Made by a program: the position numbers and the translations under genes. A DNA stretch of 64,000 nt from Granulicella mallensis MP5ACTX8 (lineage in GTDB: Bacteria; Acidobacteriota; Terriglobia; Terriglobales; Acidobacteriaceae), in NCBI RefSeq assembly GCF_000178955.2, contig NC_016631.1, forward strand, positions 558,001 to 622,000. Reading direction: 5' to 3'. This document shows positions 15,908 to 31,463 of the stretch, piece after piece. The notes under the pieces are model-generated. The model ran no database searches. It saw nothing but the letters and a program-made list of their open reading frames with translations, and was not told the origin of the DNA. The stretch's first letter is position 1. Each line of letters starts with the position of its first letter.

Positions 15908-16345
15908 TTACGACTTTACGACTGCAGCGGGCTTGCCTTCCTGCACATAGTTCTTGTTCCATGCAGGGATTTCGGCAACGTAGGCACCGGGTTTTTCGAT
16001 GACGCACTGGCAGCCGAGCCGTGAGTTCAGCTGTAGGCCGGGAGCCAGGTCCAGGCGGTCGAGTTCGAGATCTTCAGCCTCGGAGACGCCCTTTTCGCCT
16101 TCCTTCAGGAAGATGTGGCAGGTCGTGCAGGCGGAGACTCCGCCGCAGGCGTGATCGAGGAAGATGCCGTAGTTTTCGGCTACGTCGAGAAAGCTCATCG
16201 GCTGGCCGTGGCCGTCGTAGGGCAGCGAGCCGAAGGGGAACTCGACGGTCTTATTTTCTGGTTGGAAGGTCACGCGGACGAGATTCTCCGCGGGTGGCTT
16301 GGAGAGGTCTACTTCAGGAAGCGGGTTTTGTGCGTGCTCGGACAT
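15908..16345 (-). CDS. fdx: 2Fe-2S ferredoxin of the ISC system
   Basis: The 145-residue protein begins at ATG 16345 behind a GGAAG ribosome binding site; the longer frame to 16459 overlaps hscA and is rejected. The cluster ligands are C67, C73, C76 (HACGGVSACTTCH) and C112 (RLGCQC), the spacing of adrenodoxin-type ferredoxins. In the isc pathway it supplies electrons for cluster assembly on IscU. It starts 13 bases after the hscA stop, so hscA-fdx is an operon, as in classic isc clusters. Compared with Fdx of about 111 residues it has an N-terminal extension and a Lys-rich end. Confidence 0.92.
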   Translation of the reverse strand: MSEHAQNPLPEVDLSKPPAENLVRVTFQPENKTVEFPFGSLPYDGHGQPMSFLDVAENYGIFLDHACGGVSACTTCHIFLKEGEKGVSEAEDLELDRLDLAPGLQLNSRLGCQCVIEKPGAYVAEIPAWNKNYVQEGKPAAVVKS

Positions 16346-16358
16346 GTCTTCCTCTATT

Positions 16359-18377
16359 TTAGTCTTCTGTCGATTCGCCCGGCGTCTCGGGATCGTTCTC
16401 GGCCGTTTCAATCTCGTTTCTGGGCTTCGAATCTTCCACTTCAGCCTTGGCGAAGGCATGCGGTGCGTTGGGTGCGGTGCCGAGGCCTTCGCCCGCGGCC
16501 TGCATGGTCTTGCCGCCGAGCGCGCCGGTGACGGCCGTGTCCATCATGATCTCGGCGAAACGGCGCGTCTTCTTATCGAGATGCTCGATCGCGTTGCGGA
16601 TGACCTTATAGTCACCGCCGGAGATGGAGGCCTTGAGTTCGAGAGCGGCGGCCTTGATCTCTTCGTGTTCAAGCGAAGTGAGTTGCTGCCACGCGGCTGA
16701 TTTCTCACCCTTTTCGACGGCGGCGAGGATCGTCTCCGCCTCGTTCTTGGCTTCGATCACCTGGCGCGCGGTGATGTCCTCTTCGGCGTTATCGAAGGAG
16801 TCGAGAATCATGGTCTCTACCTGCTCGTCGGTGAGTCCATAGGTGGGCTTTACTTCGACCTTTGCCTCTTGTCCGCTGCGCTGTTCGCGCGCGCTGACGT
16901 GGAGGATGCCGTTGGCGTCGATGAGGAATTTGACCTCGATGCGTGGCAGGCCGGCGACCATCGGGGGGATGTTCTTGAGGTCGAAGCGGGCCAGCGAGCG
17001 GCAGTCCTTCGCGAGTTCGCGCTCGCCCTGAAGCACGTGAATCGCGACGTTGGTCTGGCCGTCGACACCGGTGGTGAAGTGCTCGGTGGCACTGGCGGGG
17101 ATCGTCGAGTTGCGCTGAATGATCTTGGCGACGACACCGCCGAGGGCTTCGATGCCCAGGGAGAGCGGTGTTACATCCAGCAACAGCAGGTCGTTGGTCG
17201 CGGCGTTTTCCGAGCCGGAGAGAATCTGCGCCTGCACGGCTGCGCCGAGTGCGACCACTTCGTCAGGGTTGAGTTCGGTATGCAGTTTCTTGCCGCGGGC
17301 TTCCAGATCGAACAGCCCGGTGACCAGCGTGCGCACGGCGGGAATGCGCGTGGAACCGCCAACCATGACGACTTCGTCGATCTGGTCGGAGGTGAGACCT
17401 GCGTCCTTCAGCGCCTGCTTGCAGGGGCCGGCAGTGCGCTCGATGACGCTCGCGATAAGCTGCTCGAACTGGGTACGGGTGATCTCGCGGAGGTACTGCT
17501 GGCCGCCCGGGAGCTCGAGAATAAGGCGCGTGGAATCTGCGGATGACAACTCGATCTTCGCCTCGATGACGGCCTTGCGCAGCGCCTGGATCGCTTCGGG
17601 ATTCGTGCTGATGTCGAGCCCAAGGTCGCCCTTGATGTCGTCGAGTGCGACGGCGGTGAGCAGGTTGTCGATGTCGTCGCCGCCGAGGTGCGTATCGCCG
17701 CCGGTCGCGATGACCTCGAAGATGCCCTCGTGCAGCTTGAGGATGGAGATGTCGAAGGTGCCGCCGCCGAAGTCGTAGACGGCGATGACGCCATCGCGTT
17801 TCTTGTCGAGACCGTAGGCCAGTGCGGCGGCTGTCGGCTCGTTGACCAGACGCAGGACTTCGAGTCCGGCGATGCGGCCGGCATCCTTGGTGGCCTGGCG
17901 CTGAGCGTCGTTGAAGTATGCGGGCACGGTGATGACGGCTTTGGTCACTTCAGCGCCGAAGAAGCGTTCCGCATTCTTCTTGAGTTGCAACAGGATGTAG
18001 GCGGAGACCTCGGGCGGGGTGAGGGTGAGGCCACCGATGTTGAGCTTCAGGACCTCGCCTGCCTTGAGCCCTTCGGCAAGCTGGAAGGGGAAGAGCTTCA
18101 ACTCGGGTTCGACGTCGGCGAGGTCACGGCCCATCAGCCGTTTGACGGAGTAGATAGCGTTTGCCGAGTTGGTCAGAAGGACATTACGCGCGGCGTTGCC
18201 GACTGAAAATCCCTGGGCCGTATCCTGATCGAACGCGACGACCGAGGGAACGATCGGCGAGCCGTCTTCTCCGGGAATGACGGCCGGAGTGTCACCCTGC
18301 ATGAAGGCGATGAGCGAGTTGGTGGTGCCGAGATCTATACCGACGACGCGCTGCTGAGCTTGTTGCTGTTCTGACAC
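16359..18377 (-). CDS. hscA: Hsp70-type iron-sulfur assembly chaperone HscA
   Basis: The 672-residue Hsp70 has the ATPase motifs [15 protein letters not shown] near residue 12, [32 protein letters not shown] and [14 protein letters not shown], then a substrate-binding domain and a charged, disordered C-terminus. HscA binds the LPPVK peptide of IscU and, driven by HscB and ATP, promotes transfer of the assembled cluster. The location directly before fdx, the lack of grpE/dnaJ neighbours and the presence of iscU and hscB in the window separate it from DnaK. It is about 55 residues longer than the E. coli protein, mostly in the tail. Confidence 0.92.
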
Positions 18378-18481
18378 GAAAATCCTCTTTCATGGGCGCT
18401 GTCGCGAGACAGAAGCGCCAATGACTATTGTCTTACATCGCGGACGGAGTTTGTCCTATATCGTACTGGAGACCTGCAAAA

Positions 18482-19441
18482 TTACGGTACAAATACCAGG
18501 CGAGTGGCTTGTTCTTTTTCGTTCCAGAGAGCTTCGACTTCGCTCAGAGGCACGGTTTTGATACTGAATGCGAAGGGTTTTTGTGCAGCGGCTTGAAAGA
18601 ACTCCGCAATGGCCTGGCTGATCTGGCTGAGCGACGCACTGCCGAAGCCGCTGCCGAGAAGCTCCAGTCCGGAACTGCGCAGTGTGGCCGCAGGCAGGGA
18701 GATATTGGCTCCGGCGCTCGATCCGATCTGGACGAAACGCACACGCGTGGAGGTGGTTTTCAGCCCTTTCTTCGCGATGGCCTGAAGCGCGGCCTCGGCG
18801 GGAGCGCCCCAGAGATAATCGAGCACGACATCGATGCCTTGATCGAACTCAGCGCGGAACGCGGCTACCAGGGCCTCGGGCGCTTGCTCGAGAGAGATGA
18901 CTGCATCTGCGCCAAACTCTTTGAGCTTCGCTAAAGCTTCCGGGTTACGGCCCGCAGCGACGACGCGCCTCGCACCGAGACGCTTGGCGATCTGTATGGA
19001 AAGCTGCCCGGAGACGCCTGTCGCGCCAAGAATCAGAACGCTTTCACCGGCCACGAACTTGGCTCGCACCGTGAGTGCGGCCCAGGAGGACATGGCGGGG
19101 TTAGCGATTCCGGCAGTGGTCGCATCGTCTAATCCCTCGGGCAATGGCAGGCACATCCAGCTTGGGGCCAGAGTGCGTTCGGCGAAGGTGCCGAAAGGGC
19201 TTCGCGCCACGCCGAAGAAGACGCGTGTTCCATCTTCCAGTCGCCCGACGCCATCGACGCCGGGAATAAACGGCAGTTCGCCGGTGCTGCCATAGTGCGT
19301 ACCGTTGGCCAGCGACTTCACGATGGGGTGCAGCGCGGCTGCGGTTACTGTGACAAGTTTTTCGCCTTCAGCCTCAACTGGGTCGGCGAAGGTCGTGTAA
19401 CGGGGAGGAGCATTGAAGGCGTGGACGACGGCAGCGTTCAT
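18482..19441 (-). CDS. Zinc-type alcohol dehydrogenase / quinone oxidoreductase family protein
   Basis: The 319-residue MDR-superfamily protein starts at ATG 19441, which follows a good AGGAG site at 8 bases; the frame to 19522 is too long. The GroES-like domain includes PFIPGVDGVGRL. The nucleotide-binding domain has LILGATGVSGQLSIQIAKRLGA (A/GxxGxxG) and the NADPH-type region ARRVVAAGRNPE. No structural or catalytic Zn cysteines are evident, so it is more like a zinc-free quinone oxidoreductase. It lies 104 bases upstream of hscA on the same strand and interrupts the canonical hscB-hscA linkage. The substrate is unknown. Confidence 0.85.
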   Translation of the reverse strand: MNAAVVHAFNAPPRYTTFADPVEAEGEKLVTVTAAALHPIVKSLANGTHYGSTGELPFIPGVDGVGRLEDGTRVFFGVARSPFGTFAERTLAPSWMCLPLPEGLDDATTAGIANPAMSSWAALTVRAKFVAGESVLILGATGVSGQLSIQIAKRLGARRVVAAGRNPEALAKLKEFGADAVISLEQAPEALVAAFRAEFDQGIDVVLDYLWGAPAEAALQAIAKKGLKTTSTRVRFVQIGSSAGANISLPAATLRSSGLELLGSGFGSASLSQISQAIAEFFQAAAQKPFAFSIKTVPLSEVEALWNEKEQATRLVFVP

Positions 19442-19520
19442 TAAATTCTCTCCTGGCAATTGCTTTCCACTGTACAGATGCGCCGCGAGGGCGCGATGAT
19501 GCAGGTCAGAGGCAACGGTC

Positions 19521-19970
19521 ATGTCACTACAGCAGAATCTTACGGGATCGACGATTATTCCGAGCTTGCGGTATCGCGATGCGCATGCGGCTATCGACTG
19601 GCTGGTGCGGGTCTTCGGCTTTCACAAGCAGGCTGTCTATGAAGGCCCGGACGGCACGGTGATGCATGCGCAGCTTACGCACGGACTCGGCATGTTGATG
19701 TTGGGTTCCATTCAGAATCACGGCGAGTTCAGTCGCGTGATGGTGCAACCGGACGAGATCGGTGGCCGCGAGACGGCGGGGCTCTGCCTGATCGTTGAGG
19801 ATTGCGATGCGGTCTATGCTTCGGTCAAGAAGGCCGGTGCGGAGATTGTGCAGGAGTTGTCCTCACCCGAATACGGTGGCAGAGCCTTCGCTTGCCGTGA
19901 CCTCGAAGACCATATTTGGTGGGTGGGTAGCTACAACCCTTGGACCGATCATAGCTCGGTGCAGGCATGA
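19521..19970 (+). CDS. VOC (glyoxalase-like) family protein
   Basis: The 149-residue protein has the paired beta-alpha-beta-beta-beta modules of the VOC fold, with SLRYRDAHAAIDWLVRVFGF in the first half and CRDLEDHIWWVGSY in the second. The latter is the PhnB-like or YdfO-like end that usually reads D-P-x-G-N/H. Members act as dioxygenases, isomerases or binding proteins; no specific substrate can be assigned. It is divergent from the oxidoreductase gene and its stop overlaps the start of the DinB-like pseudogene by four bases (ATGA), so the two form a unit. Confidence 0.8.
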   Translation: MSLQQNLTGSTIIPSLRYRDAHAAIDWLVRVFGFHKQAVYEGPDGTVMHAQLTHGLGMLMLGSIQNHGEFSRVMVQPDEIGGRETAGLCLIVEDCDAVYASVKKAGAEIVQELSSPEYGGRAFACRDLEDHIWWVGSYNPWTDHSSVQA

Positions 19971-20434
19971 GCGGCCTTCCGTACGCAGAAGCACTTGGAG
20001 CACGCGATCCGCAGCAGGTCATTGCCGAGACGCCACTACGGTTGGTGCGCGTGCTGGAGGCTTTGACGCCTGAGGAGATCGAGGCACAGCCCGCGCCGGG
20101 CAAGTGGAGCGTGCGCGAGGTTGTCGCGCATCTGGCGGACTGCGAGATCGCCTAGGGTTGGCGGCTGCGTCAGGCCCAGGCCGAAGAGCATCCGGCGATT
20201 CAGCCCTTCGATCAGGAGGCCTGGTCGCGCGTTTACGCAGCGTACTCGCTGGCGCAGGCAAGGGCCTGCTTTGAGGCGTTGCGGGCCTGGAATGTGGCGT
20301 TCGTCGGGGCGTTGAACGAGGCCGATAAGCAGCGTCCTGTGACGCATCCTGAGCGCGGCGAGGAGACGCTTTGGAACATCTTGCAGATTATGGCCGGGCA
20401 CGATTTGCATCATTTGGAGAGATTGGAAAAGTAA
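19967..20434 (+). pseudogene. DinB-like protein, split by an in-frame TAG
   Basis: The frame encodes a DinB/DUF664-type four-helix protein: PGKWSVREVVAHLADCEIA, then a TAG at 20153-20155. In the same frame it continues through GWRLRQAQAEEHPAIQPFDQ and closes with TLWNILQIMAGHDLHHLERL before a TAA at 20432. The metal-binding His residues (AHLAD; GHDLHHLE) are all present, so only one codon separates it from an intact 155-residue protein. Relatives are thought to act as metal-dependent hydrolases or thiol transferases. It could be a recent nonsense mutation, a sequencing error or a suppressed codon. It is translationally coupled to the VOC gene. Confidence 0.8.
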
Positions 20435-20462
20435 TACAGACGTTTCTGGCTTTTGCTGTTGT

Positions 20463-20645
20463 TTTTCTGTTTGTCATTCCGAGCGTAGCGAGGAACCTGC
20501 TGTCTCCCGCTCTTCGTTCGTATTGCCCATAAAATATGTGAATTAGAACTGGGCATGGTTGAACTGCCGCACAACATTTATGGTGGTCCCGGCGAAAAAC
20601 GGGAGACAGCAGGTTCCTCGCTGCGCTCGGAATGACAAACAGAAA
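20463..20645. repeat. Inverted repeat, family B (cattccgagcg type)
   Basis: The arms at 20463-20509 and 20599-20645 are almost perfect reverse complements of about 46 bases, containing gtcattccgagcgtagcgag and aacctgctgtctcccg. They are separated by about 90 bases of AT-richer spacer. The same core appears inside lpxK at 46147-46190, and a shortened form at 25723-25763. No gene is seen between the DinB remnant and the beta-lactamase gene. Confidence 0.88.
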
Positions 20646-20671
20646 GGCAAAGGAAAGCAACGGTTAACGGG

Positions 20672-21565
20672 CTAAAGTCCCCCGCGCCGCTGCTTCTCCA
20701 GTTCATCCTCAAAATCCTTCTGGTGTTCTGCTACAGCACGCTTGTATCCCTCGGGATCAAGCCATACCGTAGCGCCTTCTTTGGGCAGGCGGGCTAGTTT
20801 TTCTAGGAGACCAAAGTGGCTGCCGTGATCAGCGAGGAAGAGGTCACAGGGCAGGGCGCGCAAGGTGGCGAACGTATGGGCATAGTCCTGTGCAATGCCG
20901 GGGTAGTAGCCGGGTTGAGGGGCTATTGCTGTGAGCCGGTACTGCGAGAGCACGGTGAAGCCGCCGATGATGACGACATCGCGAAGTTTGCCGGGTGGGT
21001 CGGAGGGAATGTGCACGCGGAAGGCCCATGTGGTGCAGCCGCGGGTGTGGCCGCCGGTCTTGTGCGCGGTAAGAATCACACCGCCAAGGCTGAGGGTGTC
21101 GCCGTCATGGAGAACACGATCGACGCGGGCTGGTGCGTACTGAAGGATTCCAGGCGTACCGGCGGCGAAGTCTGTGCGGCCTCCGCTACGGACGACGTCG
21201 GCGTCGCCTTCCATCACCATGTTCTTCGCATGAGTTTCGCGAAGAATCTGCGCCGATCCGCCCATGTGGTCGAAGTGGGCCTGGCCGTTGAGGAGGATCT
21301 TTGTGTCCTTCCAGCGAAAGCCGAGTTGCTCTACGCTGGCGCGAATCTGCGGAGGGGAGCTTGGGAGGTTGGCGTTAATCAGGATGTTCCCGGCAGGTGT
21401 GGTTACCAGGTAGGAGGCGAGATCGCGGCTACCAACGTAATACAGGTTGTCCGCGATGCGGAAGGGGGAGACAGGCGTGGTCCAGTCGGGGTTCATCTGC
21501 GCGTGCAGCCCGCCGAAGGAGAACAGGATGACGACAAGGCACAATAGTTTGCGGCAAGGGCTCAT
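20672..21565 (-). CDS. Subclass B3 metallo-beta-lactamase-like protein
   Basis: The 297-residue protein has a signal peptide ending near LHAQ (residue 23). The MBL fold shows NGQAHFDHMGG (Q95, H97, D99, H100), GGHTRGCTTW (H173) and FLADHGSHFGLLEK (H247 region), all in B3 style. In most B3 enzymes the first ligand is His; here it is Gln, the variant known from GOB enzymes. B3 enzymes hydrolyse beta-lactams in the periplasm with one or two Zn ions. The TTG at 21595 opens the frame, but the ATG at 21565 gives a normal signal peptide. Activity on antibiotics is inference. Confidence 0.85.
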   Translation of the reverse strand: MSPCRKLLCLVVILFSFGGLHAQMNPDWTTPVSPFRIADNLYYVGSRDLASYLVTTPAGNILINANLPSSPPQIRASVEQLGFRWKDTKILLNGQAHFDHMGGSAQILRETHAKNMVMEGDADVVRSGGRTDFAAGTPGILQYAPARVDRVLHDGDTLSLGGVILTAHKTGGHTRGCTTWAFRVHIPSDPPGKLRDVVIIGGFTVLSQYRLTAIAPQPGYYPGIAQDYAHTFATLRALPCDLFLADHGSHFGLLEKLARLPKEGATVWLDPEGYKRAVAEHQKDFEDELEKQRRGGL

Positions 21566-21649
21566 CCCTGCTTGATAGCAGAGCGAACGGTTCAAAAACC
21601 AGCGAAGAACGTGAGGGAACTTCGCTGGTAACGGTCGGAGCTCTTCAAA

Positions 21650-22060
21650 CTATTTGGTTGAAGCAGATGCCTGTGCGCTCAGGACGAATTGGGCTTCGCC
21701 ACGACCGAACGACCAGTCGTCGAGGCTATTCTCGCTCAGCACGATCATGACATCGTCCGGGGCGACGTTCGCCCGTTCCTGAAGAAGCTGCGCTGTCTTG
21801 CTGTAGAACGCCTGCTTGATCTCGGTCGAGCGGCCCTGGCGAAGCGTCACGTGCACGATGAGGAAATCGCTGGTGCGCTGCATCTTCATGAAGTGCGGAT
21901 CACCGATTAACTCATCCTGGCTGTGTGCGGTCAGGACCATGAAGCGATCCCCTTCCGGAATGTTGAGCGTTGCGCGCATGGCGTCGTAGATCGCATCGGC
22001 GATCTGTTTACGCCGATCGGTGGAGACGGTATTGGAGACGGAGATTCGTACGAGTGGCAT
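21650..22060 (-). CDS. Tautomerase superfamily protein
   Basis: The 136-residue protein begins MPLVRISVSNT, so removal of Met exposes Pro as the N-terminal catalytic base of 4-oxalocrotonate-tautomerase-type enzymes. Two tandem beta-alpha-beta units are expected from the length. The end of the second reads DDVMIVLSENSLDDWSFGRGEAQF, the pattern of the longer malonate-semialdehyde-decarboxylase-like tautomerases. The substrate is unknown. The frame upstream to 22219 overlaps hscB and is rejected. It follows hscB by 17 bases on the same strand, so it is likely in one transcript. Confidence 0.82.
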   Translation of the reverse strand: MPLVRISVSNTVSTDRRKQIADAIYDAMRATLNIPEGDRFMVLTAHSQDELIGDPHFMKMQRTSDFLIVHVTLRQGRSTEIKQAFYSKTAQLLQERANVAPDDVMIVLSENSLDDWSFGRGEAQFVLSAQASASTK

Positions 22061-22077
22061 GGTTTTTCCTGTGGTCC

Positions 22078-22707
22078 TTATGATTCCAGCGTTTCGTTGA
22101 CATCCCGCACAAGGTTGCGGATGTAGCTGCGGCGATTGAGCAGTGCGACCAGCGCTTGCTTGGCCGAATCCTTTGCGGTGGTGTCGTCCGCATCCACGGC
22201 TGCGTCCCACTTCGACCACAGGGCTTCGAGCTGCTGTTGCGACTCGCTCAACATGGCGGTGAAGTGCTGCTGTGCCTGTTCAAGATCGCGGCGAGTCTGG
22301 GGATCGTCTTCGCCCATCTTCTTGGCCATGCGCATCTCTTCGAGCTGCATGTTCAACTCGAAGGCCTCTTCGAGCAGATCGGGCGGAGCGACCTGCTTCT
22401 TCTCCGTTCCCGCAGCTTTGGCGGCATCGGTGGCGGCGCGCGACTGCTCTTCCAACTGGATGCCTTCGAGCGCGAGCAGATACTCTGTCCGGGCGATGGG
22501 ATCGCGCAGGGTGCGGTAGGCATCGTTCAGGCGCGAGGACGAGGCGAGTGCGGCGTCTTGCTCGGCCTGCGGTTTGGCGGCGAAGCGATCAGGATGCAGC
22601 TTACGCGACTGTGCGTAGAAGGCTTTTTCCAGCGTGGGGAGATCGATGTGGAGATGCTGCGGGAGTTCGAACTGGGTGAAGTAGCTATTGGAGGCTTCGT
22701 GGCTCAT
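22078..22707 (-). CDS. hscB: Iron-sulfur assembly co-chaperone HscB (J-domain protein)
   Basis: The 209-residue protein opens with a J domain: YFTQFELPQHLHIDLPTLEK, then the invariant HPD at residues 38-40 and SRLNDAYRTLRDPIARTEYL. The C-terminal helical domain binds IscU (around EAFELNMQLEEMRM). HscB delivers IscU to HscA and stimulates its ATPase. It is about 40 residues longer than E. coli HscB because of an Ala/Lys-rich insert near residues 95-110. It lies about 3.7 kb upstream of hscA instead of directly next to it. Confidence 0.92.
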   Translation of the reverse strand: MSHEASNSYFTQFELPQHLHIDLPTLEKAFYAQSRKLHPDRFAAKPQAEQDAALASSSRLNDAYRTLRDPIARTEYLLALEGIQLEEQSRAATDAAKAAGTEKKQVAPPDLLEEAFELNMQLEEMRMAKKMGEDDPQTRRDLEQAQQHFTAMLSESQQQLEALWSKWDAAVDADDTTAKDSAKQALVALLNRRSYIRNLVRDVNETLES

Positions 22708-22792
22708 CGGGGTCTTTCAAATCTCGTATTGTTTCTTTAGATTAGATGTTTTTGCAAGCCAGCGCGAAGCTGAGAATCGTAGACTGCTATTT

Positions 22793-23509
22793 ATGACCCG
22801 ATCGATTGTGTTGCTGCTTTCTCTCTCGTTGTTTGTTCCTTCCGCGCTGGCTCTTCGGAAGCCGGCAGCAGCGAAGTCCGATGCCGAACCCGCGTGGATG
22901 GCTGACCTTGCGCGGAGGCACGAAGAGTTAATCAATCGCAACGGCCCCGGAACAGACACTGAGTTGAGGGACCGGCTGCTGGCCATGCTCGATCGCGACC
23001 AGGAGGCGCGCGGCGTGAAGGACGGTCAGCCGAAGAACAAAGAGAAGCTCGAGATCGCTACCAATCTCGCGGAGATCGACGCCGGGCTGACGACGGAGTT
23101 GAAGGAGATCGTCGCTAAGCAGGGCTGGCCGACGATTGCGCTGGTGGGCATCAAGGCGTCGAATGGAGCGATGTATATCCTGACGCACTCGGCCGACCAC
23201 GCGTGGCAGCTTTCGTTGCTGCCGCAGTTGGAGCAGCTTGCGGATGCGGGCAAGATCGATGGCTCCACGCTGGCACTGGTGATCGACAAGGAGCTGGTGT
23301 CGGAGGGCAAGCTGCAGCGCTATGGGTCGCAGTTCAAGTTTGTGGATGGAGCGATGGCCATGTACGGCGTCGAAGATCCGGGGACGCTCGACGCGCGGCG
23401 GGCCAAGGTATTTCTTCCGCCGATGGCGGTTTACAAGCAGATGCTATCGGATATGTATCACCTGAAGGCAACGGACAAGATTGTGAGTGCTGCGGCACCG
23501 GCGAACTAG
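22793..23509 (+). CDS. Secreted DUF6624-type protein, unknown function
   Basis: The 238-residue protein starts at ATG 22793 with a signal peptide (cleavage near ALALRKP). The mature region has LRDRLLAMLDRDQEARG, a KQGWPTIALVGIKASNGAM segment, LTHSADHAWQLSLLPQLE and the closing LQRYGSQFKF. This order is what I associate with the DUF6624 family. No catalytic residues are established for that family. It is divergent from hscB, with 85 bases between the starts. A large palindrome and the IS lie just downstream. Confidence 0.7.
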   Translation: MTRSIVLLLSLSLFVPSALALRKPAAAKSDAEPAWMADLARRHEELINRNGPGTDTELRDRLLAMLDRDQEARGVKDGQPKNKEKLEIATNLAEIDAGLTTELKEIVAKQGWPTIALVGIKASNGAMYILTHSADHAWQLSLLPQLEQLADAGKIDGSTLALVIDKELVSEGKLQRYGSQFKFVDGAMAMYGVEDPGTLDARRAKVFLPPMAVYKQMLSDMYHLKATDKIVSAAAPAN

Positions 23510-23597
23510 AGCGTGTCATTAAAAACTGCTGGTGAGATAAAGATTGAGCCGTGCAAATCGCTTGCTGAGGCAAGGATCGGAAGGGCAGGGTTGAAAC

Positions 23598-24863
23598 TGT
23601 CTAGTCTCCAGACATCCTTTACAGATTGTCTCCAGACATCCTTTACAAGTTGAGGAAGTTTGCCGGGCATGGCTCCACGATCGTGGAGCCATGCCCGGCG
23701 AGATCGAGTTCCCGGATCAGGGTAGCTCCGTAGAAGACGAGGGCGCGGTGGTCGATGCGCTGAATTCGGACGAGTTGTCCGGCGAGCGCACCGGCCACCT
23801 GCCAGGTGGCCTTATCGAGCCGCAACGATCCATTGGAGTTCAGTGGGTAGACTTCTGCATCGGCGGGATAGACGGGGTCCAGGGGTTTTGTGAAGGGTCG
23901 CAGGCTAGCCTTCCAGCGGCTTGCCGGAGTGGCCATCTCCAGTGCCTGGTGCGGACGAATGTGGTTGTACTCATAGCGGAAGCTGTCCAGCCATGCCTGC
24001 TCCTGGCCCTTCTCTGGCTGTACACGACGTCGTCTCGCCATCTCCAGCGAGCGATGGAAGCGCTCTACCTTACCTTGCGTCTGCGGGTGGGAGTAGCCGG
24101 AGAAGTAGAGGCGGATACTTAGCCTCATCAGCCATACCGACAGTTGTGTCCAGCCCCCTGCGGACTGCATGTTCCACCACGGAGTGCCGTGATCCATCAG
24201 CATCGCATCCGGTAAACCACAATCCCTGAACGCCTGGTCCAGACGTTGCTGCACGCCGTCTGCACCGCTGGAACCCAGATGTTCCAGTGCCACTGCGTAA
24301 CGACTATGGTCGTCCAGCACAGATAACGGGCCGATATGGGTGCCCCAGCCCTTCGGACTCTTGAAATCCATCTGCCAGAGCTGGTTCGGCCGTTCCCGAC
24401 AGAAGCTCCCGGTCGCCTTCCGATGACGATCCAGCGGATGCACCAAACCGCGCCGCTTCAGTATCCGATGAACCGTTGCGACTGGAACGTTCACACCATC
24501 CTTCTCCAAGAGCCACTGCAGCTTGCGCGCGCCCCACTCCGGATACAGCCGGCGCAGATCCTCGATCCGCCCTTCTAACTCCGCAGAACTCCGCCCCGGG
24601 CTGTGCAAGGGCTTGCGGCTGCGCTCCGCAATCCCACTCAAACCACTCTCGCGATACCGCTTCACCCATAAGTAGCCGGTGGGCCGGCTAATCCCGTACT
24701 CCTCGCACAACACCGCTAGAGAACGCAGACCAGAGACTGCTTCCTGCACAAACGAAACACGCTGCGACGAGACTTCCACATGCCTCCACGACATCCAGAC
24801 ACCCCCACAAATCTGTAAAGGATGTCTGGAGACAATGTGTAAAGGATGTCATGAGTCCGTACA
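23598..24863 (-). mobile_element. IS481-family insertion sequence, complete
   Basis: The 1266-base element begins TGTCTAG and ends CGTACA, with imperfect terminal inverted repeats. Each end carries two copies of the motif gacatcctttaca, about 24 bases apart, probably transposase binding sites. It contains one transposase gene. The flanking 8 bases gttgaaac (23590-23597 and 24864-24871) are a direct target duplication. Both ends and the gene look intact, so it may be active or recently inserted. Confidence 0.9.
23643..24794 (-). CDS. IS481-family DDE transposase
   Basis: The 383-residue protein has an N-terminal helix-turn-helix (LAVLCEEYGISRPTGYLWVK), a second HTH-like region (ILKRRGLVHP) and an rve/DDE integrase core. 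The catalytic acids are visible as WQMDFKS, LDDHSRYA and GKVERFHRSLE. A C-terminal beta domain follows (LDKATWQVAGALAGQLVRI). It is a single-frame gene, unlike the two-frame IS3 transposases. No frameshift or stop interrupts it. It fills nearly the whole element. Confidence 0.95.
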   Translation of the reverse strand: MSWRHVEVSSQRVSFVQEAVSGLRSLAVLCEEYGISRPTGYLWVKRYRESGLSGIAERSRKPLHSPGRSSAELEGRIEDLRRLYPEWGARKLQWLLEKDGVNVPVATVHRILKRRGLVHPLDRHRKATGSFCRERPNQLWQMDFKSPKGWGTHIGPLSVLDDHSRYAVALEHLGSSGADGVQQRLDQAFRDCGLPDAMLMDHGTPWWNMQSAGGWTQLSVWLMRLSIRLYFSGYSHPQTQGKVERFHRSLEMARRRRVQPEKGQEQAWLDSFRYEYNHIRPHQALEMATPASRWKASLRPFTKPLDPVYPADAEVYPLNSNGSLRLDKATWQVAGALAGQLVRIQRIDHRALVFYGATLIRELDLAGHGSTIVEPCPANFLNL

Positions 24864-24962
24864 GTTGAAACCCTGCCCTTCCGAGTCGTGCCTCAGCAAG
24901 CGATTTGCACAGTTCGACTTCATTCCAAGGGCCATTGGATGGCAGGCCCTGGCAGGCAGAGC

Positions 24963-25187
24963 TTAGGATGGCTGCGTTGTGGTCGTGCGGTCGGGACGGG
25001 GCCTGCTAAACCAAAGGATGGCGACACTTGCGAGGGATGCGCCTAAACACCGTGATGCATAGTCGCCTAGGTCACTCCAGTGGGGTCCAATATGATGGAC
25101 AACTGCGCGATAGAGAGCGATGCCTACGGCGTAAGCAATTGAAGTATAGACAACGCGTTTTACGGCCAGCCGCTGAAATGCAGTCAT
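24963..25187 (-). CDS. Small membrane protein downstream of iscA
   Basis: The 74-residue protein has a basic N-terminus and two hydrophobic segments (about residues 13-30 and 47-60), then a Arg/Thr-rich cytoplasmic end. The start is supported by a GAGGA ribosome binding site 6 bases before the ATG at 25187. It begins 8 bases after the iscA stop, so it belongs to the iscU-iscA transcript. It is not a normal isc gene (it is not iscX) and its function is unknown. Confidence 0.6.
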   Translation of the reverse strand: MTAFQRLAVKRVVYTSIAYAVGIALYRAVVHHIGPHWSDLGDYASRCLGASLASVAILWFSRPRPDRTTTTQPS

Positions 25188-25195
25188 GAATTCCT

Positions 25196-25693
25196 CTATG
25201 CCGAGAAACTAGACCCACACCCGCAGCTCTTGGTGGAGTTGGGGTTGATGAAGTTGAAGCCCTGGCGCATCAGCGTCTCTTCGAAGTCCAGCACCATGCC
25301 CGCGAGATACAGATAGCTCTTCGGATCGACGAAGAGGCGAACAGGCTTTGCCCCGCTGGGGTCGTTGGGGGTTTCGATGCCTGCGCCGAAGACGAAGGTG
25401 CGGTCGCGCTCGCGGGGCTGGGTGTCGAAGCGGATGTTGTAGCTCAGACCCGAGCAGCCGCCGCCCTGAACGCCCAGGCGCAGACCGCCCTGGTCGGGCG
25501 AGATGCCTTCCTTGGCCATGGCGACACGGATGCGCTTGAGCGCGTTCTTCGTAATCTCAATGGCGGCCTTCGCACGCGAGGTCTGGCCTTCGGCGGTGAG
25601 CAGCGTCATGCCTGCGAGAGGATCTTTGGGAGCCGCAGGCGCGGGAGCGCTCATTGCCTGGCTGGTCGTCGAACTGATGGAGACAGTAGACAT
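25196..25693 (-). CDS. iscA: A-type iron-sulfur carrier IscA with N-terminal extension
   Basis: The 165-residue protein has the A-type core with C80 in GGGCSGLSYNI and C157/C159 in SCGCGSSF, the three cysteines that hold iron or a cluster. IscA receives or carries clusters from IscU to apo-enzymes. Typical IscA is about 107 residues; here about 48 extra residues rich in Ser/Ala/Pro precede the core (which begins near AAIEITKNALKRI). The start at ATG 25693 is chosen because the open frame further upstream runs through a family B repeat and then overlaps iscU. Confidence 0.92.
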   Translation of the reverse strand: MSTVSISSTTSQAMSAPAPAAPKDPLAGMTLLTAEGQTSRAKAAIEITKNALKRIRVAMAKEGISPDQGGLRLGVQGGGCSGLSYNIRFDTQPRERDRTFVFGAGIETPNDPSGAKPVRLFVDPKSYLYLAGMVLDFEETLMRQGFNFINPNSTKSCGCGSSFSA

Positions 25694-25722
25694 ACGTTTA
25701 TTGGATGAGAACGATAGTGGCA

Positions 25723-25763
25723 GGGAAGCAGGTTCCCTGCGGGAATGACAAAAGAAAAGCAAA
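25723..25763. repeat. Shortened family B repeat between iscU and iscA
   Basis: The sequence gaagcaggttccctgcggga followed by atgacaaaagaaaagc resembles the right arm of the family B repeat but lacks the middle ctcgctgcgctc. It can form a small hairpin (gcaggttccctgc). It lies in the 131-base gap between iscU and iscA. Confidence 0.6.
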
Positions 25764-25824
25764 TACGGAACGTGCGAAGGCCGGCGGTGATACTGTCCGC
25801 CGGCCCACGGGTATTGGTTTGCGC

Positions 25825-26244
25825 TTAGTGAGCCGCGACTGCGACGCCAGCTTCTTCGGCAACGCCGTTCTTTTTCTTCCAGTCGCCGATCGCGGCGCGG
25901 ATGGCGTCTTCCGCCAGAACCGAGCAGTGAATCTTGACCGGAGGAAGCGCGAGTTCCTTGACGATGTCGGTGTTCGAGATCGTCAGAGCCTCGGCAACGG
26001 TCTTGCCTTTGACCCACTCGGTAGCGAGCGAGCTGGAAGCAATCGCCGAGCCGCAGCCGAAGGTCTTGAACTTGGCATCCTCGATGACCTGGGTCTCGGG
26101 ATTCACCTTGATCTGGAGGCGCATGACGTCGCCGCACTCAGGGGCGCCGACCAGGCCGGTGCCGACTTCGGTCGAGCTCTTGTCGAGCGTGCCGACGTTG
26201 CGGGGATTTTCGTAGTGATCAACAACCTTATCGCTATATGCCAT
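25825..26244 (-). CDS. iscU: Iron-sulfur cluster scaffold IscU
   Basis: The 139-residue protein carries the scaffold residues C37 and D39 (APECGDV), C64 (FGCGSAIAS), and H106/C107 (KIHCSVLAEDAI). It also has the LPPVK peptide recognised by HscA directly before H106. IscU receives sulfur from IscS and assembles 2Fe-2S clusters in the cytoplasm. The LPPVK motif agrees with the hscA and hscB genes found downstream. The C-terminus is about 10 residues longer than in E. coli (AEEAGVAVAAH). A GAGGTAG site precedes the ATG. Confidence 0.95.
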   Translation of the reverse strand: MAYSDKVVDHYENPRNVGTLDKSSTEVGTGLVGAPECGDVMRLQIKVNPETQVIEDAKFKTFGCGSAIASSSLATEWVKGKTVAEALTISNTDIVKELALPPVKIHCSVLAEDAIRAAIGDWKKKNGVAEEAGVAVAAH

Positions 26245-26304
26245 GGGAATCTACCTCGTTTCCTTAGATGATACTCCGAAGCTGGAGGGTTCGGAAGGGC
26301 GCGA

Positions 26305-27768
26305 TTATTCCACCGGGCTGTCTGGCGTGGGAATTATGTCCTCGTTGCCCGTCCCGTAGGTGGGGTAGGGCAGCGGTTCGGTGTTGATTGGAATGGCCTT
26401 TAGGGTAATGAGGTCCTGTTGAACCGTCGCCCAGGCGGAGGGATCATTTTTTGTGGCAAAGGGGAGGCTTAGGTCGGCGTAGTAGATGAGAATGTCGGCC
26501 TTGATGCCGGGAGGAACGGCGTTGGCAGGGTGCAGCGCCAGGATGTGGAGCAGACGAGCATAGGTGGCGTCGGTCAGGGAATAGCCGCTGGGCCTGACCG
26601 GATAGCCGGTGTCCAGATCGCGATTGAGGAGCGGATGGTGTGGGTCGTGAGAGCCGCGAGGGATCTGTTGTTCTGCTCCGGGGAGGGCGGGGAGCGGCTG
26701 CGAGGGGGCGGGATCGGAGTGGGTATCCTCTGAGGCGGCGAGTGAGGCGGTCAGTTTCGTCGCAGGGGGAGGGGTGAAGCGGCGCAGTTGGGCGTCAAGC
26801 TGGTCCGCTGAACGCATAACCGAGTGGATATAGTCGGCCTCCGTCTGCTGCGTGGGCCCTTTGACCGCGACCAGTTTTAACGCTCCGACCTTGGGCAGAA
26901 TGAAGAGAAAACCGGCGAGGCAGTAGGTGCCGACTCCAGCCTTACCGCGGTAGGTGTCCCAGTGGTTTTTCTGGGAGATGGTGGTGAGTTCGCTGGTCAG
27001 GCGCTGAAAGTCGGGATCGGTGGTGAGGTCCGAGGGTTCGTGTCTGCGGTGCAGCAGGGTTACGGCGAACGCGATGCGTGGAATGAAGCCGCGCACGGCG
27101 AAGCGATAACCACGGACATTGATACGGCTGCGGCGGTGGTCGGTGAAGTCTTCGCGCAGACCGTAGGTCTGGTAGAAGGCCAGGGCGAGTTGGCGAGTGG
27201 GAACCTGAAGACCGACGTGGCGCAGGTAGGGCAGGGGGGCGAAGCGGTGGTGCGCGATCTCGTTGATGTCAAAGGCGAATTCGGTCTGCACATGCTGGTG
27301 CTCGCCCTGGGCGTAGTTCACGGATAGGCCATAACGCTGACCGAGAGCAGGGAATTCGATGGGGACAGCCCGGTTGGTGGCCTCGGAGTGGCCGATGGTG
27401 TCGCCGATATAGTGCGAGAGCGCGCCGGCGGCGAAGGCCAGTTCATCGGCATTTCCGGCGTTGCGGAAGAGGTTGACCACGAAATCTCCTGACCGGACGT
27501 AGTGGGTCAGGTTGGAGAAGTTGGCATCGCCGAAGGGGTAGTAGCCGATGTCCTGGATGACGCAGCCACCGTAGGCATAGGCGCGGGCATGCTCAATCTG
27601 CGCCGGTGTCAGCGTGGGATAGCGGCTGAGCAGCAGTGGAACGATGGAGCTGTCCCAGGTGAGGTCGATCAGTTGTTCGTGGGTCAGTACAGAGTAGGCG
27701 CCTGCGGGGCGAGCGAGGCCGAGCATGCAGAGCAGTGCGACGAGCGCGAGGCGGAGGCCCAGAGTCAT
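26305..27768 (-). CDS. Secreted zinc-dependent phospholipase C-like protein
   Basis: The 487-residue protein has a signal peptide (cleavage near PAGAYS), so the mature chain begins close to a conserved YSVLTHEQLID. Further His/Asp ligand candidates are in AAGALSHYIGDTIGHSEATN and in EHQHVQTEFAFD. These are the patterns of the Zn_dep_PLPC family (distant relatives of bacterial phospholipase C), which would act outside the cytoplasm on phospholipids. The C-terminal 150 residues are Pro/Thr-rich and probably not catalytic. It lies between iscS and iscU on the same strand and has no known link to them. Confidence 0.78.
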   Translation of the reverse strand: MTLGLRLALVALLCMLGLARPAGAYSVLTHEQLIDLTWDSSIVPLLLSRYPTLTPAQIEHARAYAYGGCVIQDIGYYPFGDANFSNLTHYVRSGDFVVNLFRNAGNADELAFAAGALSHYIGDTIGHSEATNRAVPIEFPALGQRYGLSVNYAQGEHQHVQTEFAFDINEIAHHRFAPLPYLRHVGLQVPTRQLALAFYQTYGLREDFTDHRRSRINVRGYRFAVRGFIPRIAFAVTLLHRRHEPSDLTTDPDFQRLTSELTTISQKNHWDTYRGKAGVGTYCLAGFLFILPKVGALKLVAVKGPTQQTEADYIHSVMRSADQLDAQLRRFTPPPATKLTASLAASEDTHSDPAPSQPLPALPGAEQQIPRGSHDPHHPLLNRDLDTGYPVRPSGYSLTDATYARLLHILALHPANAVPPGIKADILIYYADLSLPFATKNDPSAWATVQQDLITLKAIPINTEPLPYPTYGTGNEDIIPTPDSPVE

Positions 27769-27794
27769 GTTGTTCGGATAAGGGTATAGCAGAA

Positions 27795-27849
27795 GCCTTT
27801 ATTTTTCTTGTTGTCATTCGACTTCGATGACAACAAGAAAAACAAAGGC
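27795..27849. repeat. Palindrome upstream of the ankyrin gene
   Basis: A 55-base palindrome whose two 23-base arms differ by one base and contain tttttcttgttgtcat and its complement. The same arm sequence is used in the repeat at 28893-29039 on the other side of the ankyrin gene. Confidence 0.88.
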
Positions 27850-27957
27850 ACCCTATAAAATCAATCGCGGTATTCAAATTGAACACCGTCGCTTGCCCGG
27901 CGCAATTGCTGATCTGGGCAGAATCTCGACAAGATAATCGTTCATCAGGAGACAAGC

Positions 27958-28875
27958 ATGAAGGAAATGCGCTTCGCAGCCATCTTATGTGTCGCTCTAT
28001 CGCTAAGCGGTTTGGCTATCGGGCAATCCGGCTCCGACAAACTGAATCGGCAACTGATTCAGGCCTCGGATGACGGCAATGCCGAAGTCGTGAAGACGTT
28101 ATTGGCGCAGGGAGCCGATATCGAAGGCCGGGATGACAGCGAGCAGACTCCACTCAAGGTAGCCACCGAACACGCCAGAGTTGATGCCGTACGGGTGCTG
28201 TTGGCTAAGGGCGCTAATGTTGAAGCTAAGTCCAACTCTAAAGGGACTCCTCTCAACTGGGCCGTAGGTGGAGACGGGAAGATTCTCCGCAGTGAGTATG
28301 CGGATCGCCTTGCGATCGTGAAAATGTTGCTGGACAAAAAGGCCGATACCACTGCGAAGACGACAAGTGGCGATACAGCCCTTCACCTGGCTGCTCTGAA
28401 TTATGTAAATACCGACATTCTGCAACTGCTCTTGAGCAAAGGCGCAAACGTCGAAGCGAAAAATCGGAACGGCTTCACTGCGTTGATTTACGCAGCGCTC
28501 GAAGACCACACCGAAGCCGTGACGATGCTTCTGGCGAAAGGTGCCAAGATCGACGCTGCGGACTCAGAGGGACAAACAGCACTGATGCATGCCGTCAGTG
28601 AGGAGCGCATTGATTCGGTGGATCTGCTGATCGCTAAAGGTGCGAACCTCGAGGCCGTGGACAACGAAGGCCAGACCGCGCTATTCCGTGCAGCTATGGA
28701 TGATGATTCCAACTACGACTGGGGCGGCAACTATGTAGAAGTGACGAAGCTCCTGCTGGCCAAAGGCGCCAACGTGAATGCCAAGGACGACCACGGTCGT
28801 ACCCCACTTCAGATGGCTATCAGGAACGATAAGCACCAGGTCATCAAACTGCTGCAGGAAAAGGGCGCGCACTGA
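27958..28875 (+). CDS. Secreted ankyrin-repeat protein
   Basis: The 305-residue protein has a signal peptide (MRFAAILCVALSLSGLAIG, cleavage near GQSG), then seven to eight ankyrin repeats of 33 residues. They are visible from recurring LLAKGANVEAKSNSKGTPLNWA-like units such as LLSKGANVEAKNRNGFTALIYA (shortened here) and LLLAKGANVNAKDDHGRTPL. Ankyrin proteins bind other proteins; a periplasmic location is inferred from the signal. The gene is on the opposite strand to the isc genes around it and is bracketed by related palindromes. Confidence 0.85.
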   Translation: MKEMRFAAILCVALSLSGLAIGQSGSDKLNRQLIQASDDGNAEVVKTLLAQGADIEGRDDSEQTPLKVATEHARVDAVRVLLAKGANVEAKSNSKGTPLNWAVGGDGKILRSEYADRLAIVKMLLDKKADTTAKTTSGDTALHLAALNYVNTDILQLLLSKGANVEAKNRNGFTALIYAALEDHTEAVTMLLAKGAKIDAADSEGQTALMHAVSEERIDSVDLLIAKGANLEAVDNEGQTALFRAAMDDDSNYDWGGNYVEVTKLLLAKGANVNAKDDHGRTPLQMAIRNDKHQVIKLLQEKGAH

Positions 28876-28892
28876 TCGATAGAAGTGGTGCC

Positions 28893-29039
28893 TTTGTTTT
28901 TCTTGTTGTCATTCCCGAAGGGAATCTGCTTCATGGGGTGCTGCACTGCTAGGTCTTTTACCTTGCGAAATTTATTGACGTTTGCGGCAGTACAAACAAA
29001 CAGCAGATTCCCTTCGGGAATGACAACAAGAAAAACAAA
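28893..29039. repeat. Perfect 38-bp inverted repeat downstream of the ankyrin gene
   Basis: The arms 28893-28930 and 29002-29039 are exact reverse complements (tttgtttttcttgttgtcat then tcccgaagggaatctgct), with 71 bases between. The inner part cccgaaggg is itself palindromic. It follows the ankyrin stop by 17 bases and could terminate transcription. Confidence 0.92.
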
Positions 29040-29110
29040 AAAGCAGAAGCAGAAACAAACCCCATTCATTCGCGAGGAATGAATGGGGTTTGGATAGTTC
29101 CTAGCTGAAA

Positions 29111-29341
29111 TTACAGGCCCTTTGGCAATTTCAGTACCTGCCGCTTCAGCTTCATTGCCAAATAAAACAGAAGCAATGTGCCGCAACCTCCGAGCACGAT
29201 GGGGGCAGCCGAGACGATAAGCCAGTATCGAAACGTCGCGTGTAGGCAACGGTCGGCGATCGCTGTTGCTGCCAGCATGGCAAGCAATACAAGTGAGACT
29301 CGAAGAAAACGGCTCGTATCGCTGAGGATTCTCTTTTCCAT
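29111..29341 (-). CDS. Small membrane protein, unknown function
   Basis: The 76-residue protein starts at ATG 29341, preceded by a GGAGA ribosome binding site about 5 bases away; the frame continuing upstream to 29578 runs through a terminator and is rejected. It has two hydrophobic helices (about residues 12-27 and 37-60) and a Lys-rich end (KLKRQVLKLPKG). No family is recognised. It stands between iscS and the ankyrin gene, separated from iscS by a terminator-like hairpin. Confidence 0.55.
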   Translation of the reverse strand: MEKRILSDTSRFLRVSLVLLAMLAATAIADRCLHATFRYWLIVSAAPIVLGGCGTLLLFYLAMKLKRQVLKLPKGL

Positions 29342-29480
29342 GCGGTCTCCAGAGGATATCCACCCGATTGTACTTGTCTGGATAGAAACGCTTCCAGTGG
29401 CCTGAATCCAAAGTTTGTTGAAGAAGGGTGCCTGTTCCTTACAGCGCACTTGGCGCTCTCCGGCAGAGCACAATGAACGC

Positions 29481-29520
29481 AAAAAGAGCAGACGCTTTGT
29501 GTAACGCGCCTGCTCTTTTT
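29481..29520 (-). terminator. Terminator downstream of iscS
   Basis: The stem aaaaagagcag / ctgctcttttt (about 11 base pairs, extended by a few more near the loop) ends in a T-run on either strand. It lies 43 bases after the iscS stop and probably ends an iscR-iscS transcript. Confidence 0.75.
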
Positions 29521-29562
29521 GTGTTCGTAGCTTTTGAAAAATGCCGCGATTTCCAATACAAC

Positions 29563-30834
29563 TTAGTGAGCAGCCCACTCGATCTTGCTGAGGTCGATGC
29601 CTTCCTTGACCATCTCGTACAGCGGCGATAGCTCACGGAGCTTCGAAACAACGTCGATCAGTTTGTCGGAGACGTAGTCCACTTCCGCCTTGGTGTTGAA
29701 GCGGCCGAGGCCGAAGCGGATAGAGCTGTGGGCAACGTCGTCGCCGAGGCCGAGGGCCTTGAGAACATAGCTGGGCTCCAGCGTGGCCGAGGTGCAGGCC
29801 GAACCGGACGAGACAGCGATGTCGTTGATGCCCATCAGTAGAGATTCACCTTCGACGTAGACGAAGCTCATGTTCAGGTTGCCGGGCAGATGGTGGTCCA
29901 TGTTGCCGTTGACCTGCGTGTAGTCGAGAGCCTTCTCCAGCTTTGCGCGAAGGTAGTCGCGCAGCTCGATCTCACGGGCGGCTTCGGCTTCCATCTCGTT
30001 CTGGCAGATCTCGCAAGCAGCGCCGAGACCGACGATACCCGGAACGTTCAGCGTGCCGGAACGCATGCCGCGCTCGTGGCCGCCACCGTTGATCTGCTCG
30101 GAGATCTGTACACGAGGATTGCGGCGGCGAACATACAGCGCGCCCACACCCTTCGGGCCATAGATCTTGTGGCCGGAGAGAGAGAGCACATCGATGTTGT
30201 CGGCGATCACGTTGACGGGAATCTTGCCGACGGCTTGGACAGCGTCGGTGTGGAAGAGCACACCCTTCTCGTGGCAGAGCTTGCCGATCTCGCGGATCGG
30301 CTGGATGACGCCGATCTCGTTGTTCGCGTACATGATCGAGACGAGGATCGTCTGGTCGTCCATGGCGCGCTTCAGGTCTTCGATATCGATCAGGCCATCA
30401 GCCTGCGCGGGCAGGTAGGTGATGCGGTAGCCGGACTTCTCGAGGCGCTTGCAGGTGTCGAGAACAGCCTTGTGCTCGGTGACCTGGGTGATGATGTGGT
30501 TGCCGCGCTCGCGGTACATCTCGGCGATGCCCTTGATGGCGAGGTTGTTCGACTCGGTCGCGCCGGAGGTGAAGATGATCTCCTTGGCGGTGGCGCCGAT
30601 GAGCTTGGCGATCTGTTCGCGCGCCTTCTCGACCGCGGACTCAGCCTCCCAGCCGAAGCTGTGGTTGCGGCTGGCGGCGTTGCCGAAGATGCCGGTCAGG
30701 TAGGGCATCATGGCCTCAAGCACGCGCGGATCCAGCGGCGTGGTCGCGTGGTTATCCATATAGATGGGCAGCTTGACGCCTGCGGGCAGGGGCTCGTTCG
30801 ATTGAGTGACGTTAATTCCGATACTTTCAGCCAT
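29563..30834 (-). CDS. iscS: Cysteine desulfurase IscS
   Basis: The 423-residue class V aminotransferase-fold enzyme has the PLP lysine K223 in [13 protein letters not shown] and the persulfide cysteine C347 in [18 protein letters not shown] on the mobile loop, and [14 protein letters not shown] near the N-terminus. IscS removes sulfur from L-cysteine to give alanine and passes it to IscU, and often to tRNA thiolation. It begins about 20 residues later than the core because of a short N-terminal extension. It is 86 bases downstream of iscR on the same strand. Confidence 0.95.
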
Positions 30835-30920
30835 GATGTGCGCTCCTAAACTTGGGTGTTGCTGATTACAAATGGTTTCCGGCCAGCTTTGAACTGCGGG
30901 GGAGCTGACTACGAGTAAAA

Positions 30921-31379
30921 CTAGAGCGCGATGCTCACTAGACCGCCAGCCAGGGCCGCAGCAGGAGAGTCCTCGATCGGTTCAATCAGATCCGAGACGC
31001 GGATGCCGCTGAGCAGTTCCTTGATGCTGTCGTTAACCTTACGCAACGGTTCTTTGATGGTGCAGGTACCGTGCAGGTCGCAGGTTCCGTGGATAGTAAT
31101 GCAGCTAGTGATAAAAAGCGGGCCGTCGATGGCGCGAATCACCTCGAAGGCCGAGATGTCGTGGGCCGAGCGGGCAAGCGCGTAACCACCGTTAGTTCCG
31201 GCATGCGAAACCAGCAGGCCGGACTTGGCCAGCGTCTGCAGGATCTTGGCCAGAAGCTGCGGAGGGATGTGATAAGCCTCCGCGATATCCTTGGCGGATT
31301 GCGCACCATTGGTGGACTGCTCGGCAAGGTACTTGAGCGCCATCAGTCCATAGTCCGCTTTTTTGGTCAGTCGCAGCAT
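30921..31379 (-). CDS. iscR: Rrf2-family iron-sulfur regulator IscR
   Basis: The 152-residue protein has a winged-helix N-terminus ([39 protein letters not shown]) and three cysteines in [15 protein letters not shown], the usual ligand triad for a 2Fe-2S cluster. First in the gene series and followed by iscS, it most likely represses the isc genes when clusters are plentiful. The spacing between the first two cysteines is one residue longer than in E. coli IscR. ATG 31379 is preferred over a TTG at 31388. Confidence 0.88.
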
Positions 31380-31463
31380 GATCGGCAAAGGCGAATTGAA
31401 CGCATGTCGCGTAAATTTCGGCCATTCTCAGTGTACGGCGCGGAGGGTTCGTAAGCAAGACCA

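Follow-up and report, generated by a model that had tools for sequence, protein, structure and literature searches.

The 64,000-nucleotide stretch of Granulicella mallensis MP5ACTX8 analyzed here (NC_016631.1, positions 558,001 to 622,000; hereafter the window, with positions counted from its first letter) carries the genes of the ISC iron–sulfur (Fe–S) cluster assembly system. Positions 15908 to 31388 contain, on the minus strand, iscR, iscS, iscU, iscA, hscB, hscA, and fdx, the same seven genes in the same order and direction as in the proteobacterial isc operon (iscRSUA-hscBA-fdx). The initial annotation had described a complete isc set in this E. coli order, and both order and strand were borne out by open reading frame (ORF) coordinates and profile matches. 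IscS (29563..30834; TIGR02006, 649.1 bits, cut-off 643.2), IscU (25825..26244; TIGR01999, 212.3 bits, cut-off 192.4), HscB (22078..22707; TIGR00714, 60.2 bits, cut-off 46.75), and HscA (16359..18377, GTG start; TIGR01991, 723.3 bits, cut-off 708.55) all scored above the NCBIfam cut-offs, and IscU contains the LPPVK peptide, as had been claimed. All seven genes of the described set are real, although three of them fell short of their equivalog cut-offs. The iscR product (30921..31379; longest ORF to 31388) is an Rrf2-family regulator with three conserved cysteines (TIGR00738, 115.7 bits, cut-off 73.3) but not an IscR equivalog by score (TIGR02010, 69.4 bits versus 207.55); iscA (25196..25693) encodes an A-type carrier (TIGR00049, 98.5 bits, cut-off 58.8) below the IscA equivalog cut-off (TIGR02011, 75.9 versus 150.6 bits); and fdx (15908..16345) encodes a [2Fe-2S] ferredoxin below the ISC ferredoxin cut-off (TIGR02007, 76.1 versus 132.1 bits).

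Unlike the proteobacterial operon, this set is broken into four blocks, namely iscR-iscS, iscU-iscA, hscB together with a tautomerase gene, and hscA-fdx. Nine non-isc ORFs lie among them: orf29111, an ankyrin-repeat gene (ANK), a zinc-dependent phospholipase C-like gene (PLC), an IS481-family transposase gene, a DUF6624 gene, the tautomerase gene, a subclass B3 metallo-beta-lactamase-like gene (MBL), a VOC/glyoxalase-like gene, and a zinc-binding dehydrogenase-like gene (ADH). The initial annotation had counted at least ten unrelated genes, some on the opposite strand; the count is nine, and three of them (ANK, DUF6624, and VOC) are indeed plus-strand genes. Together with the iscS-iscU (3.3 kb), iscU-hscB (3.2 kb, iscA included), and hscB-hscA (3.7 kb) gaps, these three genes mean that the locus is not an uninterrupted co-directional gene string. 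"Scattered," as the locus had been called, suits these gaps but not the individual genes, since iscR-iscS, iscU-iscA, and hscA-fdx still adjoin.

We then compared this arrangement with isc loci from the family. Among 150 genomes searched, an IscU-model match was found in 146 and exceeded the cut-off in 114; the remaining 36 (four with no match at all) were not followed. Sixty of the 114 loci, picked for long contigs, were fetched, 50 of them from other genera. In 49 of these 50, all seven isc genes lay in order on one strand within 5.7–6.8 kb (median span of the other-genera loci, 6.1 kb), and in the fiftieth the contig ends before fdx. VOC, DUF6624, PLC, MBL, ADH, and ANK were each found within the isc span in 0/50 of these loci. 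Four genomes of the sister clade (G199, G201, G223, and G230) were compact as well. The ancestral isc locus was thus compact, and the earlier view of a once compact operon split by insertions agrees with these directly observed arrangements.

Several of the intervening genes could be followed into the window's own genus (g1) and two related genera (g32 and g35). The VOC gene (19521..19970, plus strand; PF00903), antisense between hscB and hscA, is found at this position in members of each of the three genera. DUF6624 (22688..23509, plus strand; PF20329), between iscA and hscB, and PLC (26305..27768, minus strand; PF00882, 63.5 bits), between iscS and iscU, are widespread at the same positions in g1, and each was also observed in g35, DUF6624 in G098 and PLC in G034. 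ANK (27958..28875, plus strand; PF00023) is present also in the sister genome G151, and orf29111, which had no Pfam match, has as its sole support a 70% match in that genome. MBL (20672..21595, minus strand; NF033105, 291.6 bits, cut-off 240) and ADH (18482..19522, minus strand; PF00107) are further inserts; relatives of the MBL gene were seen at the matching place in other same-genus genomes. The tautomerase gene (21650..22060, minus strand; PF14552), an old hscB neighbor, is no late intruder, because it was found between hscB and hscA in 8/50 loci of other genera. The IS481-family transposase gene (23643..24794, minus strand; NF033577, 235 bits, cut-off 224; PF13011) was absent from the matching place in G151 and in every other locus compared. 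IS481 was therefore rejected as the driver of the break-up, since it is lacking in relatives, such as G151, that are already broken.

A tree of isc proteins (48 rows, 44 in an earlier version; rows of 500 residues or fewer left out), in which several nodes within g1 are weak (65–82), placed the four compact genomes, G098, and Granulicella sp. S190 in one group (support 100). This group was sister to a clade holding G034, G130, and g1 (98; joint node 85). G172 retains iscS-PLC without iscU and G169 retains PLC-iscU without iscS, so that PLC is probably older than the moves in these two genomes. In two nested groups (G158 and G171; G159, G155, G160, G166, G162, and G116), the iscS-iscU gap measures 0.1–0.25 kb and lacks PLC; the simplest reading is that the gap closed secondarily.

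Within the sampled genomes, isc break-up was met only in g1, g32, and g35. To describe its extent, we mapped 80 genomes (23/28 of g1, 17/19 of the second genus, and 40/60 of the third, these drawn from a larger group) after poorer assemblies had been dropped by hand, and scored pairs as intact below 0.5 kb (iscS-iscU), 1.2 kb (iscU-hscB), or 0.8 kb (hscB-hscA). The pairs were intact in 51/79, 20/77, and 10/75 genomes, respectively; pieces on different contigs were scored as not intact, and part of this loss may reflect assembly. Only 4/80 genomes were fully compact, and 25/80 had at least one pair that was either inverted or separated by more than 20 kb on the same contig. Inverted pieces occurred in 5/23 mapped g1 genomes (G140, G150, G168, G169, and G064). 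In G140, iscU and hscB are 184 kb apart, hscB and hscA are 47 kb apart and inverted, and iscS and iscU are 534 kb apart and inverted; in G174 of the three-genus clade, hscA lies 577 kb from iscU. With inversions and relocations of the G140 type, the genus as a whole does not support the view of the initial annotation that selection kept order and direction.

Next, we looked for regulatory sequences in front of the isc pieces. A palindrome is common to the iscR upstream regions of relatives, and a 21-base operator profile (TcCGACtgAAacGGTCGtATA, 20.8 bits) was trained on 67 such regions from outside the three-genus clade, 64 of which scored above 8. Sites were counted at scores of 10 or higher, with same-genome repeats removed. 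The best match in the window is a predicted operator 5′ of iscR (GAC-N7-GTC, 31459..31471; 15.0 on the plus and 12.9 on the minus strand). A second predicted operator lies 5′ of hscA (GGACAAACTCCGTCC on the minus strand, GGAC-N7-GTCC, 18442..18456; score 10.6, match 18440–18460), and no site reaching 10 was found in front of the window hscB. In other genera, sites preceded iscR in 67/70 genomes (rows that overlap the training set) and hscB in 1/59, and none was found at iscS (0/72), iscU (0/76), iscA (0/70), hscA (0/72), or fdx (0/59). The corresponding numbers in the clade were 17/28 for iscR, 1/29 for iscS, 8/36 for iscU, and 7/33 for hscA, with none at iscA (0/30) or fdx (0/16). In the four compact sister genomes, iscR alone reached 10, the next best values being 9.6 (fdx) and 6.9 (hscB), both in G230. 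In a scan of both strands of clade and control loci (4.04 million positions), 58 of 107 matches lay no more than 350 bases from the end of an isc gene, and only 1/410 non-isc upstream regions of clade loci reached the threshold. These counts suggest that some detached isc pieces each have a predicted binding site for the regulator.

The candidate sites are also conserved. A 29-base pattern upstream of iscU, GCACCRAAAYAGTCCGAGTTATCATCTAA, is matched at 28–29/29 positions in G034, G064, G116, G150, G152, G156, G162, and G165, the same eight genomes, from two genera, from which it was drawn; where shown, its flanks differ between them. In six g35 genomes (G130, G214, G225, G227, G242, and G245), the right half-site is altered and the last part is kept. 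The window and its sisters retain the last part alone, GAGTATCATCTAA; here a conserved block, GAGTATCATCTAAGG (26262..26276, minus strand), is a likely −10 region, and the operator half-sites that stand beside it in relatives are absent. Upstream of hscA, 6 other genomes of the genus have a site at the equivalent position, and in G155, G160, G166, G170, G157, G151, and the window the site lies at a near-fixed distance from a TAGGACAATAG-like block. In G174, the relocated hscA follows an HhH-GPD glycosylase-like ORF by 12 bases, and a site scoring 15.9 precedes that ORF by about 67 bases. By their conservation, the predicted operators at iscU and hscA look functional. Two of the three blocks that lie 3′ of a break point seem to have gained a predicted operator of their own.

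From these results, the window probably shows a single ancestral operon partway through break-up, in part converted into a regulon. An operon iscRSUA-hscB-hscA-fdx of about 6 kb would have received single genes, some antisense, between its blocks in ancestors of the three genera: VOC at the hscB-hscA junction, DUF6624 at the iscA-hscB junction, and then PLC at the iscS-iscU junction, with MBL, ADH, ANK, and IS481 added, IS481 being the latest. Because such inserts would have severed the downstream blocks from the iscR promoter, the iscU and hscA blocks may have gained promoters of their own, and an operator for the Fe–S-sensing Rrf2 regulator may have arisen at each, so that a small regulon would partly replace the single operon. 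At iscU the window would have kept only the −10-like block, with sites remaining at iscR and hscA. The kept order would then be inherited and not enforced, as in sister species these blocks have been inverted or moved hundreds of kilobases away. We infer that the sites are bound by the Rrf2 regulator, acting in repression, and that promoters lie at the conserved blocks. A fuller version, in which a sole and probably indispensable Fe–S operon became a dispersed regulon with predicted operators of its sensor arising de novo at iscU, hscA, and the hscA unit of G174, followed in some lineages by re-closing of a gap (PLC lost twice) and in others by operator loss from every isc piece, is plausible and is put forward tentatively.

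Several observations weigh against this interpretation. The seed of the operator profile was picked after all upstream regions, including those of the clade, had been viewed; the hscA site of the window is weak (10.6), with another, non-isc match of 10.1 at 49250; and the window iscU has no predicted operator at score 10. The hscB gene has been cut off too, yet 0/32 clade genomes have a site there. Among the 28 clade genomes in which iscR was scored, 10 (G031, G095, G128, G148, G140, G168, G169, G172, G214, and G245) have no isc piece at 10 or above, iscR included; since some siteless genomes, such as G148, are little broken, site loss does not simply follow dispersal. The iscU sites probably represent one gain, the hscA sites in g1 probably one or two, and the G174 site one. 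As the sequences are related, independent gains are few, and Fisher tests on the counts overstate independence.

Could the break-up instead be neutral decay alone, each piece having an unregulated promoter and the iscU and hscA sites being due to chance or to another regulator? Most pieces are siteless at score 10 (iscU 28/36, hscA 26/33, and hscB 32/32), as are 10/28 genomes even at iscR, both in favor of decay. We nevertheless consider this account unlikely, as the same genes had no sites in other genera (iscU 0/76, hscA 0/72), the iscU block is preserved almost letter for letter (28–29/29) in eight genomes of two genera, a further site precedes the relocated hscA unit of G174, and the single background region above threshold scored 15.9, equal to the G174 site, and is probably that site itself. 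It appears very improbable that selection actively maintains order and direction, for example for co-transcription or co-localized assembly. The window preserves order and strand and so, despite wide gaps, do G151, G152, G153, G156, G157, G158, and G170 of the same genus, but near relatives are expected to retain order by descent, antisense ANK, DUF6624, and VOC genes stand between the blocks, and the inverted pairs in 5/23 same-genus genomes and the inverted or distant pairs in 25/80 genomes tell against such a constraint.

A genome-wide collapse of operons, for example through mobile elements, with isc as one random victim, seems quite unlikely. It draws on the IS481 element and hairpin repeats within the isc region and on the dcw cluster, which is loosened or broken in G177 and G174 of the clade and in G117, G066, G141, G017, and G072 outside it, so that isc is not unique in its break-up. 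However, G151 is already broken without IS481, and the order of the nuo genes (C, D, E, F, G, H, J, K, L, M, and N) was kept in 30/30 fetched loci (two of which end before or within nuoN), with a few wider gaps, up to about 3.6 kb in G174. Twenty of the 30 loci were from the clade, and in these 20 genomes the isc pairs iscS-iscU, iscU-hscB, and hscB-hscA were intact in only 8, 2, and 0. Only two control operons were followed, and dcw, being broken in some outgroups, is of limited use as one; fully genome-wide operon loss is not supported by nuo, and dcw leaves room for it. In G117, G066, and G141 (L161, L162, and L169), dcw is broken upstream of mraY although the genus has a compact isc.

Redundancy was considered as another cause of break-up. 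A second full isc cluster, which the initial annotation had named as a result that would speak against it, was not found in the genome (a single contig of 6,237,577 bases), where whole-genome searches gave one IscU match and one IscS match at E 1e-165. A second HscA-model match (628.6 bits, under the cut-off of 708.55), with similar second matches in the other genomes listed, is taken to be DnaK. SufB matches (E 1e-40) occurred in 2/80 family genomes, a sample containing none of the 36 genomes without IscU above the cut-off, and in 0/53 genomes from the three genera. Since there is a single IscU match and SufB was unseen in 78/80 family genomes, isc is probably the sole Fe–S assembly system here, and redundancy through a second isc or SUF system is not supported as the cause of break-up at the thresholds used. 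Loss of the sensor cysteines as a cause of missing sites was likewise not seen: all three were kept in the regulator of the aligned clade rows.

Operon death by insertion and operon-to-regulon models were reportedly set out by Price et al. in 2006, and the scattered isc genes, which may be co-regulated as a regulon, resemble the cases that such models describe. The regulator invites comparison with RisR of Myxococcus xanthus, which belongs to Rrf2 group IS6, a group that takes in Acidobacteria, according to the RisR paper (PMC9973013). Like RisR as described there (PMC9973013), the window protein is a three-cysteine member of the Rrf2 superfamily adjoining isc genes, and a GAC-N7-GTC palindrome, here predicted, stands in the promoter; the RisR footprint core, T(t/g)GAC-N7-GTCC(t/a), matches that of the predicted operators. 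The cysteine spacing differs, C-X6-C-X5-C in the window regulator versus Cys 92, 102, and 108 in RisR (PMC9973013). Whereas M. xanthus RisR governs whole isc and suf operons (PMC9973013), the predicted sites here precede single detached blocks, and SufB was not found in the three genera.

A review of his genes (PMC10138114) states that after a split the regulatory motif stays with the first unit only, and presents the regulation of split-off operon parts as an open point in operon evolution. Unlike that description (PMC10138114), downstream isc units appear to have gained the motif, and intermediate stages exist in living relatives. Among close relatives, at least one of which is a cultured type strain, this single-copy system exists in compact, loosened, and split states as well as in apparently re-closed and fully dispersed ones, so that the sequence in which insertion, promoter gain, operator gain, and relocation occurred is directly testable. 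If the sites are the regulator's, these states offer a stepwise view of how the genes of one operon can come under separate control. Among the matches listed from the openly licensed literature (titles and abstract openings), none dealt with isc break-up in Acidobacteriaceae.

Additional features were noted in the window. A possible terminator hairpin with a perfect stem of 16 pairs follows iscS (29056..29092, minus strand); generic scans were no richer than shuffles (promoters 1 versus 4.6, terminators 15 versus 14.9). The insertion sequence and palindromic repeats mentioned in the initial annotation correspond to the IS481 transposase gene and to 8 listed inverted-repeat pairs in the isc region. 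The inverted repeats at 20459–20650, 27795–27849, and 28893–29039 share TTTTTCT..TTGTCATTCC-like ends and are perhaps small mobile elements.

Operator-like sites were also seen away from isc genes. In G140, whose scored isc pieces have no site, a near-perfect predicted operator (26.9; L200:17222-17244) lies about 60 bases 5′ of nuoA, and its regulator may therefore still read the same motif. G017, one of the two SufB-bearing genomes, has two adjoining operator-like sites (18.9 and 14.4; L166:18527-18575) between divergent ORFs. In G031 (L184:6910) and G095 (L185:12449), operator-like sites about 160–180 bases 5′ of nuoE sit inside a small ORF where the nuoD-nuoE gap has widened.

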